Translations under genes and position numbers: made by a program
Notes under the pieces: model-generated
What the model was told of the DNA's origin: nothing
Database searches by the model: none
Seen by the model: only the letters and a program-made list of their open reading frames with translations
Shown here: positions 21,647 through 24,347 of the stretch, one piece after another
Layout: the number at the start of each line of letters is the position of its first letter
Position numbering within the stretch: the stretch's first letter is position 1
Assembly (NCBI RefSeq): GCF_034424525.1
Contig: NZ_CP139979.1
Location: forward strand, 3,931,001-3,995,000
Source: Sphingobium yanoikuyae
Lineage (GTDB): Bacteria; Pseudomonadota; Alphaproteobacteria; Sphingomonadales; Sphingomonadaceae
Length of the DNA stretch: 64,000 bases
Direction: 5' to 3'

Positions 21647-22009
21647 ATGGCACGCGTAAAACGTGGTGTAACCACCAAGGCGAAGCATAAGAGGATTTTG
21701 GTTCAGGCGAAGGGCTATTATGGCCGTCGCAAGAACACGATCCGTGTCGCTCGCCAGGCTGTCGAAAAGGCCGGCCAGTACGCTTATCGCGACCGCAAGG
21801 TCAAGAAGCGCACCTTCCGTGGCCTGTGGATCCAGCGCATCAACGCGGGTGTCCGCGCTGAAGGCCTGACCTATTCGCAGTTCATGCATGGCCTGAAGCT
21901 GGCCGGCGTCGAGCTGGACCGCAAGGTTCTGGCCGACATCGCGATGCACGAAGGCGAGGCGTTCAGCGCCATCATCGCCCAGGCCAAGGCTGCGCTGCCC
22001 GCAGCCTGA
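21647..22009 (+). CDS. rplT: 50S ribosomal protein L20
   Basis: The 120-residue protein starts [20 protein letters not shown] and includes [22 protein letters not shown] and [20 protein letters not shown], classic L20. L20 is an early 50S assembly protein and represses its own operon in E. coli and Bacillus. The usual next partners pheS-pheT come about 1.2 kb later, after a LysE gene and the GIY-YIG cassette. Confidence 0.97.
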
Positions 22010-22088: not shown

Positions 22089-22161
22089 CCGTTCGTCCTG
22101 AGCGAAGTCGAAGTGCCTTCGCTGCGCTCTGGCGGGGCTTCGACAGGCTCAGCCCGAACGG
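22089..22161. repeat. Sphingomonad-type intergenic palindromic repeat (copy 2)
   Basis: CCGTTCGTCCTGAGC at the left end and GGCTCAGCCCGAACGG at the right end are inverted, with inner GTCGAAGTG and GGCTTCGAC arms. It shares the terminal CCGTTCGTNCTGAG motif with the element at 5453-5552. It sits between rplT and the LysE gene. Confidence 0.8.
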
Positions 22162-22198: not shown

Positions 22199-22819
22199 AT
22201 GTCGCTGCATCTCTGGTGGTTATATGTCACGGCGGTCTTCCTGATCTCGGCCACGCCCGGCCCCAACATGCTGCATGTGATGACGCAGAGCATCGCCCAT
22301 GGGCCGCGCAAGGCGCTGGTGACGATGGCGGGGCTGATGAGCGCCGTGCTGCTGTGCCTGATCGCGTCGGCGCTGGGCCTTGGCGCGCTGCTGAAAGCCT
22401 CGCCGCGCCTGTTCGACATATTGCGCTATGCCGGTGTCGCCTATCTCATCTGGCTGGGGATCAAGGCCTGGCGCGCACCGGTCGGGTCCGCCGACGGCAG
22501 CGATGCCGGCCCGGTCCGCTCGGCCCGCGCACTTTATGCGACCGGGCTGCTGACCGGCCTGTCCAACCCCAAGCTCATCATCTTCGCCGCCGCGCTCTTC
22601 CCCCAGTTCATCGACCTAGCCCGCCCCTTCTGGCTGCAGCTGGCGATCCTGATCGTCAGCTTCGTGGTGATCGAAAGCTTCTGGTATTCGGTCTACGCTC
22701 TGGGCGGCCTGCGCCTCGCCCGCTGGCTGGCGCCGGCCAACCGGCAGAAACTGTTCAACCGCGGCACCGGCCTGATGTTCATCGGCTTTGGCGGCGCGCT
22801 GCTGGGCGCGCGCGCCTAA
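22199..22819 (+). CDS. LysE/RhtB-family exporter
   Basis: The 206-residue, six-helix membrane protein has LysE-family features: VFLISATPGPNMLHVMTQSI in the first helix region (the TPGP motif), YAGVAYLIWLGIKAWRA, and GLLTGLSNPKLIIFAAALFPQF with the conserved NPK motif. Members export amino acids or related small molecules; the substrate here is not predictable. GAGG precedes the ATG at 22199. It lies between two repeat elements and separates rplT from pheS. Confidence 0.92.
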   Translation: MSLHLWWLYVTAVFLISATPGPNMLHVMTQSIAHGPRKALVTMAGLMSAVLLCLIASALGLGALLKASPRLFDILRYAGVAYLIWLGIKAWRAPVGSADGSDAGPVRSARALYATGLLTGLSNPKLIIFAAALFPQFIDLARPFWLQLAILIVSFVVIESFWYSVYALGGLRLARWLAPANRQKLFNRGTGLMFIGFGGALLGARA

Positions 22820-22829
22820 CCCCCAACTC

Positions 22830-22864
22830 CGTCATTCCCGCGAAAGCGGGAACCCATCTCCCGA
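22830..22864 (+). repeat. Left inverted-repeat arm of the GIY-YIG cassette (REP-like)
   Basis: This 35-base arm is identical to the reverse complement of 23198-23232; complementarity stops at the next base on both sides. It contains the self-complementary core TTCCCGCGAAAGCGGGAA, so it can fold on its own as well as pair with the right arm. It begins 11 bp after the LysE stop. Confidence 0.9.
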
Positions 22865-22871
22865 GGCATCG

Positions 22872-23189
22872 ATGACGCGCGAGATCAGCCCCACCGTCTA
22901 CATGCTCGCCAGCCGCCGCAACGGTACATTATATGTCGGCGTCACATCCGATCTCATAAAGCGCCTCTACGAGCATCGAAACGGCTTGATCGAAGGCTTC
23001 ACGAAAGACTACGGCGTCAAGCGCCTGGTCTGGTTTGAACCACATGACAGCATGGACAGCGCCATCCTGCGGGAAAAGCGGATCAAGAAATGGAACAGGC
23101 AGTGGAAGATTGAGCTGATCGAGGCCGGCAATCCCGATTGGGACGATCTGGCGCTGGGCTTTGGCTTCGCGCCTTTACCCCGCGACTGA
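22872..23189 (+). CDS. Small GIY-YIG nuclease-domain protein
   Basis: The 105-residue protein is one GIY-YIG domain (UPF0213-like). PTVYMLASRRNGTLYVGVTS supplies the two conserved Tyr residues (Tyr10 and Tyr21 in the LYVGVT variant of the motif). DLIKRLYEHRNG follows with the basic helix, and ILREKRIKKWNR holds the candidate metal-binding Glu68. There is no separate DNA-binding domain. The start at 22872 is the first ATG inside the left arm; frames extending upstream would translate the repeat itself. Cellular function of this family is not established, and the flanking perfect inverted repeats suggest it acts on or moves with those repeats. Confidence 0.88.
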   Translation: MTREISPTVYMLASRRNGTLYVGVTSDLIKRLYEHRNGLIEGFTKDYGVKRLVWFEPHDSMDSAILREKRIKKWNRQWKIELIEAGNPDWDDLALGFGFAPLPRD

Positions 23190-23197
23190 TCGAGAGG

Positions 23198-23232
23198 TCG
23201 GGAGATGGGTTCCCGCTTTCGCGGGAATGACG
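23198..23232 (-). repeat. Right inverted-repeat arm of the GIY-YIG cassette (REP-like)
   Basis: This arm is the exact reverse complement of 22830-22864. It starts 8 bp after the nuclease stop codon and ends 23 bp before the pheS start, so it lies in the pheS leader and could fold there as an mRNA hairpin. Confidence 0.9.
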
Positions 23233-23255
23233 ATGAGATTGATGGATAGAGAGTC

Positions 23256-24347
23256 ATGACCGAAATTAGCGCACTGAAAGCCGGCCTGATCGCCGACATC
23301 GAGGCTGCCGACACGCTGGACGCGCTGGAAGGGCTGCGCGTGGGCGCGCTGGGCAAGAATGGGGTCGTCACCGGCCTGTTGAAGACGCTGGGCGGCATGT
23401 CGCCCGAGGAGCGTCTGGAAAAAGGCCCGCCGATCCAGGATCTGCGCGAAAGCGTGACCGCCGCGATCGCCGACCGCAAAGCCGCGCTGGAGCAGGCCGC
23501 GCTCGACGCCCGCCTCGCCTCGGAAAAGGTCGACATGACCCTGCCCGCCGATCTGGGGCCGCAGGGCAGCGTCCATGCCGTCAGCCAGGTGATGGACGAA
23601 CTGGCGGAAATCTTCGCGGACCTCGGCTTCTCGGTCGCGACCGGCCCGGAGATCGAGGACGACTGGCATAATTTCACCGCGCTCAACATTCCCGAGACGC
23701 ATCCGGCGCGCGCGATGCACGACACCTTCTACTTCCCGGACGAGGAAGGGCAGAAGAAGATGCTGCTGCGCACCCATACGTCGCCGGTGCAGATCCGCAC
23801 CATGATGACGCAGGAACCGCCGATCCGCATCATCGCGCCCGGCCGCGTCTATCGCAGCGACAGCGACGCGACCCACACGCCGATGTTCCACCAGATCGAG
23901 GGGCTGGTGATCGACAAGGGCATCACGCTGGGTCACCTCAAATGGACGCTGGAGACCTTCCTCAAGGCCTTCTTCGAGCGCGAGGATATCGTCCTGCGCC
24001 TGCGCCCGAGCTATTTCCCGTTCACCGAGCCGTCGGTCGAAGTCGATGTCGGCTATACGCTGACCAATGGCCAGCGCGTCATCGGCGGCGACGGCGATGC
24101 GCCCGGTGGCGGCTGGCTGGAAGTGCTGGGAAGCGGCATGGTCAACCGCCGCGTGATCGAGGCCTGCGGCCTTGATCCCGACGAGTGGCAGGGCTTTGCC
24201 TTCGGCACCGGCGTCGACCGCCTCGCCATGCTGAAATATGGCATGAACGACCTGCGCGCCTTCTTCGACGGCGATCTGCGCTGGCTGAAACATTATGGAT
24301 TCTCGGCACTCGACGTGCCCACGCTGTCGGGAGGAGTCGGCGCATGA
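23256..24347 (+). CDS. pheS: Phenylalanyl-tRNA synthetase alpha subunit
   Basis: The 363-residue protein carries the class II catalytic core: N-terminal coiled coil (residues about 1-95), then [29 protein letters not shown] (motif 2 region), [20 protein letters not shown] and the C-terminal [20 protein letters not shown] (motif 3). It forms an alpha2-beta2 enzyme with PheT. The stop overlaps the pheT start by 4 bp (ATGA), giving tight coupling of the subunits. The right arm of the GIY-YIG cassette lies directly upstream. Confidence 0.97.

Follow-up and report, generated by a model that had tools for sequence, protein, structure and literature searches.

The 403-bp unit that lies upstream of pheS in the window (the whole 64-kb stretch of DNA that was analysed) is quite probably a gene-bearing, and probably autonomous, form of a CGTC REP/REPIN family, with a small GIY-YIG nuclease as its dedicated enzyme. 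At the level of sequence, the association of GIY-YIG genes with CGTC hairpins and its clade specificity are established: the clades of the nuclease have their own hairpins, which mostly carry CGTC outward, gene-less hairpin doublets occur as well, and presence differs among close relatives. The nuclease is likely to mobilise the REPs, and it is the best candidate for the partner enzyme that the CGTC REPs have been missing.

The 403-bp unit and its repeat family

The unit occupies positions 22830..23232 (+ strand), and the order in the window is rplT (21647-22009), a LysE-type exporter, the unit and pheS (23256-24347), gene names that rest on the text of the sequence-only reading and on sequence resemblance. 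Relatives differ at this pheS-upstream site, which is filled in some of them and empty in the rest. The sequence-only reading had described a gene for a 105-residue GIY-YIG protein between perfect 35-bp inverted arms, and this was confirmed: the left arm (22830..22864, + strand) and the right arm (23198..23232, - strand) are identical at 35/35 bp once one of them is reverse-complemented. The gene (22872..23189, + strand; 105 aa plus stop) begins with an ATG at 22872, 7 bp past the left arm, and ends with a TGA at 23187-23189, 8 bp short of the right arm, both spacings being exactly as claimed. The left arm, of which the right arm is the exact reverse complement, consists of the tag CGTC, the stem TTCCCGC/GCGGGAA, the loop GAAA and the tail CCCATCTCCCGA, and both arms have their CGTC end outward. 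As single-stranded DNA each arm was predicted to fold into TTCCCGC-GAAA-GCGGGAA (-8.5 kcal/mol, z -3.8), which bears out the hairpin that had been proposed from the letters alone. The stem of the window arms has seven paired bases, with A opposite C at the eighth position; in the arm copies of the host genome (G000, 5.53 Mb) that carry ...AATCCA, all eight stem bases are paired. The arm core TCATTCCCGCGAAAGCGGGAA occurred twice in the 64-kb window with up to three mismatches, and two occurrences were reached in 0/100 shuffles (mean 0.01). No Rfam family matched positions 22500-23600. A second, imperfect inverted repeat, TTCGTCCTGAGCGAAGTCGAAG / CTTCGACAGGCTCAGCCCGAAC, was seen at 22092-22159, between rplT and the LysE-type gene.

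The suspicion that the arm recurs elsewhere in the genome proved right. The extended arm pattern GTCATTCCCGCNNNNGCGGGAAYCCA gave 24 matches in G000 (at most three mismatches) and its reversed control gave 0; 18 of these matches lie in nine head-to-head doublets, two are the window arms and four are others. The nine doublets contain no gene and have their hairpin starts 61-62 bp apart, and the six that we inspected are about 88-90 bp long, mostly with the inner extension ATCCATCTC of the window arms. One doublet of the window-arm family and one of the TTGCGAG family were each predicted to fold, as a single strand, into a long hairpin. The arms of G000 conform to the CGTC REPs defined by Di Nocera, De Gregorio and Rocco 2013 (PMC3733652) in their tag, stem, loop and tail and in the orientation of the dimers. 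That paper describes a CGTC tag, a stem of 8-9 bp mostly starting with AT, a loop of 4-5 nt, a CCA-type tail and mainly head-to-head dimers: the window arms have the CGTC tag at both outer ends, the loop GAAA and the tail CCCA, and in G000 the arm is a genomic repeat that occurs mainly as head-to-head dimers.

The 105-aa product matched PF01541 with 55.9 bits (cut-off 22.6), and this was the sole Pfam family in the scan of the protein; the NCBIfam models gave no match to any of three proteins, and the phage records gave none at E 1e-6. The closest named proteins were those of Sphingobium sp. IP1 (96%) and S. yanoikuyae (95%), which points to Sphingobium as the probable genus. Among 189 places chosen for an open frame, Y21 was conserved in 189, Y10, R31, H35 and N87 in 188 each, and E68 in 186; these are the catalytic residues. 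The AlphaFold2 model of the protein (pLDDT 90.4) had UPF0213 proteins, Slx1 and the UvrC N-domain as its nearest solved folds, with E < 0.001 for the first match alone. The UPF0213 proteins (BH0048, 1zg2; EF2693, 1ywl), which are small single-domain GIY-YIG proteins of the same length and fold, were the best matches in both sequence and fold among solved structures, the best fold alignment showing 26% identity. The other two, Slx1 and the N-domain of UvrC, are structure-specific repair nucleases, and since Slx1 cuts branched DNA, according to the titles of structure entries, a hairpin or cruciform substrate is plausible for the present protein. Some C-termini among the proteins of three loci (L023, L038, L041) read FPLSRE, resembling an in-frame reading of the 3' REP arm.

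Pairing of GIY-YIG genes with their arms across genomes

Homologues were searched for in 61 genomes (the host genome, 36 of the same genus and 24 of the same order) and were present in 46 of them. The order set comprised 124 places, namely the matches listed down to about E 6e-20, minus one at a contig end (G013:C82) and plus one extra place. A wider set was drawn from a genome contig collection, in which at least 589 stretches fitted a peptide pattern and 586 were confirmed, the best 80 being kept. An arm pair was called when an inverted pair with a score of at least 16 lay within 200 bp of the gene, and of 205 loci two (L238 and L146) were skipped for short flanks.

Among the matches listed that had sufficient flank, an inverted arm pair surrounded the GIY-YIG gene at 104/123 places of the order set and strict CGTC hairpins stood on both sides at 72/123, counts that are non-independent, as they include many one-site orthologues or near-copies. 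Control windows shifted within the loci gave an arm pair in 2/432 cases and strict hairpins on both sides in 0/432, and neighbouring ORFs, used as a further control, had an arm pair at 3/179. In the wider set (the best 80 of at least 586), many loci of which are metagenome bins, 45/80 had an arm pair and 33 had hairpins on both sides. The expectation of the sequence-only reading that GIY-YIG homologues would be repeatedly bordered by paired arms was thus upheld both within the order and elsewhere. With regard to orientation, both hairpins pointed outward at 87/120 order-set places and inward at 7/120, as judged by a looser stem rule, and the corresponding figures for the best 80 of the wider set were 33/78 and 9/78. 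By record title, the wider-set loci with arms included many from Proteobacteria as well as Omnitrophota (L113), Elusimicrobia (L141), Nitrospira (L152) and Desulfobacterales (L089), and the loci titled Anaerolineae, Planctomycetota, Ignavibacteria, Daviesbacteria and Berkelbacteria had no arms. By the score used, 19/123 order-set and 35/80 wider-set places had no arm pair. Of the Sphingomonas copies beside pheS, 8/11 lacked one (L078, L090, L095, L104, L105, L107, L111 and L117), which suggests that these are old domesticated copies or that they have another role.

The arms were sorted into eight stem families and compared with a tree of 122 proteins, 112 rows of which were labelled (of the 124 places, ten lacked an arm-family label and a further two were of insufficient length for the tree; one arm alone gave the label in 20 cases). 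Arm family changed 14 times on the protein tree, where the minimum was 7, the shuffled mean was 64 and 0/200 shuffles were as low, a clustering that is inflated by near-copies among the proteins. A branch with support 83 set the CCAGC family (38 rows) apart from all other rows. Clustering was uneven, with 6 changes for family A and 4 for family B, and family H (5 rows) was not clearly clustered (34/500 shuffles as low). At least two arm families occurred in 29/38 genomes with labelled genes; G000 has four, namely A (CCCGC), B (GCTGA), F (TTGCGAG) and C (CCAGC). As paralogues of one genome have different arms, passive flanking would not explain the pattern.

We also compared copy numbers of the REPs between genomes with and without the corresponding gene. 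With a partial locus-genome map, from which for example L212 (G030) and L224 (G009) were left out, A-type REPs reached at least five copies in 17/18 scored genus genomes with an A-type gene and in 5/19 without one (G033 carries 55 A-type repeats and was counted as gene-less, yet has A-type gene fragments in a broken assembly). For B-type REPs the same threshold was reached in 14/16 scored genus genomes with a B-type gene and in 5/21 without, and F-type REPs reached at least four copies in 2/2 genomes with a labelled F-type gene and in 9/35 without (Fisher p 0.08). With the full map and a pheS tree, used as the species tree, of the 30 genomes that have a pheS locus, about 3.4 of 4 independent pairs were as expected for A (0.1 against) and 1.7 of 3 for B (0.0 against); these pairs were too few for the enzyme-REP association to reach significance.

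Presence, multiplication and junctions among relatives

A GIY-YIG gene was present upstream of pheS in 14/30 genomes viewed and none was seen there in the other 16. At 10 of these 16 sites the LysE gene lies 71-93 bp from pheS, so that LysE-pheS junctions without the unit, for which the sequence-only reading had proposed to look, were indeed found in relatives. The pheS site of G009 has no GIY-YIG gene and carries B-type repeat sequence. At some sites, such as the present one at pheS, the gene looks vertically inherited, and RAYT genes are likewise vertically inherited. Whole units have multiplied in a few lineages (G032, G001): in clade C, one G032 contig holds six unit copies, and labelled copies number four in G001 and three in G021. 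G035 has four identical copies at contig ends, which may partly be an assembly effect, and some copies of the gene contain stops. Fourteen aligned clade-C copies share homology for about 55 bp to the left and about 80 bp to the right of the hairpins, and since this homology runs past them, the hairpins do not mark where each element ends. Pairs from different sites in families A (165), B (108) and D (20) showed no comparable match outside the arms, many of the A and B pairs being distant. At one clade-C site of G032 the element is absent from G001 and G030. Two other clade-C loci of G032 (L248 and L262) have an identical left flank and differing right flanks, as after recombination between copies.

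Presence of gene-less doublets varied in a similar comparison of eight F-type doublet sites of G022 with G000, G016 and G018, in which the doublet was missing from at least one relative at 7/8 sites (filled states in G000 being inferred from gap lengths); at three of the sites (L359, L360 and L366) it was missing from all three relatives. G022 and G000 have the F-type gene together with 38 and 29 pattern matches, respectively. At the site of the F-type gene, G016 and G018 carry doublets that belong to other families, and their F-type pattern matches number 6 and 8. This intergenic spot, L055 (G000:C1:~2186832-2187258), is thus occupied by an F-type gene unit in two genomes and by gene-less C and A doublets in two relatives (L284 in G018 and L291 in G016), which is repeated use or replacement of one site. 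At another locus (L010 compared with L277 and L278) a REP doublet is shared in two alleles, about 20 flanking bases differ, three synonymous codons included, and identity is 98-100% over the next 127 bp outward; the repeat may have been the centre of a local gene conversion here. At six G022 loci (L353, L354, L356, L358, L362 and L365) the F-type doublets adjoin longer shared sequence like ATGTCGGATTTTAGCGGCTAACGACC, and part of this sequence is similar to the outer right end of the element in clade C.

At L357 the empty G018 allele reads ...CATGC on one side of the junction and TGTCATTTCGC on the other, and in the filled allele the doublet stands at that TGTCATT, a sequence that agrees with the REP end. 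At most other F-type sites the doublet is accompanied by some 5-25 additional bases, and a regular target duplication was found neither at one clade-C site nor at seven F-type sites. Although few in number, these irregular junctions would fit a nick at or close to the tag followed by microhomology repair by the host better than cut-and-paste with a fixed duplication. The idea that insertions add outer inverted 6-7-mers was tried and rejected, a match of at least 6 being found in 5/21 cases and in 27/200 crossed pairs.

A probable partner enzyme for the CGTC REPs, and other explanations

CGTC REPs are known from five phyla, most of them from alphaproteobacteria, including S. chlorophenolicum and S. 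wittichii, and were reported without a dedicated transposase (Di Nocera et al. 2013, PMC3733652). According to the main text of that paper, no tyrosine transposase gene is flanked by CGTC units in the CGTC-bearing species, other transposases show fortuitous associations only, and one of the two explanations put forward is that CGTC 'REPtrons' vanished early. The systems thus differ in that no transposase gene is given there, where the word 'GIY' is absent from the main text, whereas a GIY-YIG partner is seen here. Among the papers listed, our literature search found none tying GIY-YIG enzymes to REPs, preprints and most subscription journals lying outside its reach. RAYT or TnpA-REP REPtrons resemble the present unit in having a nuclease gene flanked by REP hairpins and in forming gene-less head-to-head doublets (REPINs) too, and enzyme and hairpin have been described to co-evolve in them (PMC8266576). 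The label 'RAYT-like' given by the sequence-only reading therefore holds for the anatomy, a gene flanked by REP hairpins, but not for the enzyme, which is a GIY-YIG protein of another fold than the Y1/HuH transposase, nor for the tag, which is CGTC instead of GTAG. The analysis went beyond that reading in showing that GIY-YIG clades have differing arms and that these arms fit the published CGTC superfamily, described without a known transposase (PMC3733652).

If the nuclease is indeed dedicated to the REPs, it would recognise its cognate hairpin, either on single-stranded DNA at a replication fork or as a cruciform, and would make its nick in the CGTC tag or close to it. Host repair could then copy or rejoin the released or broken DNA elsewhere, and doublets might thereby spread without a gene of their own. 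GIY-YIG enzymes are not known to join DNA ends, which counts against the reading as a mover. The wider proposal, that stand-alone GIY-YIG nucleases form a new transposase class recognising and mobilising CGTC hairpins, with the CGTC REPs/REPINs of several phyla as its non-autonomous members, could in our judgement equally well turn out right or wrong. A cognate nuclease, if true, would explain the spread of CGTC REPs and would open this question to tests with one protein of 105 aa and one hairpin of 35 bases, and REPtron-type systems would gain an enzyme of unrelated fold; the numerous enzyme-hairpin pairs found in nature would offer a ready set for studying how hairpin DNA might be read by a GIY-YIG domain.

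Instead of moving the REPs, a homing-type GIY-YIG gene might have invaded the spacer of existing doublets that had moved otherwise, its enzyme cutting gene-less doublets and its own gene being copied in. GIY-YIG is a known homing-endonuclease fold, and such genes lie inside an element that they may cut; moreover, the gene takes the position of the spacer in a head-to-head doublet, and a cognate pairing of enzyme and arm would follow from homing too. We nevertheless find this unlikely. At the three sites compared (pheS, L055 and L056), a small number, no gene-less doublet of the same family was seen in gene-less relatives: pheS is empty in ten relatives and has a B-type repeat in G009, G018 and G016 carry doublets of different families at L055, and the sequence found at L056 in G018 and G022 is unrelated. 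Unlike in typical homing systems, no intron or intein was seen at the unit and the flanking hairpins exist without the gene too, and an alternative mover of the doublets in the form of a Y1 transposase, the one family searched, was not found in G000. It is also rather improbable that the protein is a housekeeping structure-specific nuclease that trims or resolves REP hairpins, or regulates itself through its own arms, with the REPs spreading otherwise. The nearest folds (UPF0213 and the structure-specific repair nucleases Slx1 and UvrC N-domain), the conserved catalytic residues and the lineages that keep the GIY-YIG gene at pheS without arms would all agree with such a role, but the multiple labelled units in G032 and G001 would be odd for a housekeeping gene, and the clades differ in their arms even within one genome.

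That a RAYT or other transposase elsewhere moves the CGTC REPs, with the GIY-YIG genes as passengers, appears very improbable. The transposase family searched, Y1_Tnp (PF01797), did match in 19/61 genomes, but there was no match in G000, for which a RAYT as the mover was rejected on this ground; in addition, 8 of the 25 Y1_Tnp matches were inspected and none of these RAYT loci had CGTC hairpins. Passengers, furthermore, would not track arm type, and the absence of tyrosine transposase genes flanked by CGTC units from the main-text account of CGTC-bearing species (PMC3733652) points the same way. Finally, REPs could be abundant enough in intergenic DNA for any small gene to be flanked by chance, and they do occur at tens of copies in some genomes; this explanation has next to no probability, being contradicted by the shifted windows (2/432) and neighbouring ORFs (3/179) as compared with 104/123 among the matches listed, by the bias towards outward orientation and by the clade-linked arms.

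Arm pairs were seen on plasmids as well. In a plasmid collection 33 records had a match, and among the 12 viewed, paired arms were present in Azospirillum lipoferum 4B, Rhizobium sp. CIAT894, Novosphingobium aromaticivorans pNL2, Shinella sp. HZN7, Sphingobium sp. TomMM15 and Aeromonas caviae; a Sinorhizobium meliloti record had a weak arm pair, and no arm pair was seen in the Photobacterium and Rhizobium K1/93 records. In A. lipoferum 4B the GIY-YIG gene with its REPs sits between sufB and sufC. On plasmid p1 of Planktothrix agardhii (L301) the gene lies between annotations of an MmeI-type protein and a DISARM helicase, with a different repeat, GTCATTCTGAGTGAAACGAAGAATCTC, nearby. At two loci of Neisseria gonorrhoeae (L294 and L295) it is found among GTCATTCCCGC...GCGGGAAT repeats, the nearest of which point inward and which we take to be dRS3-like.
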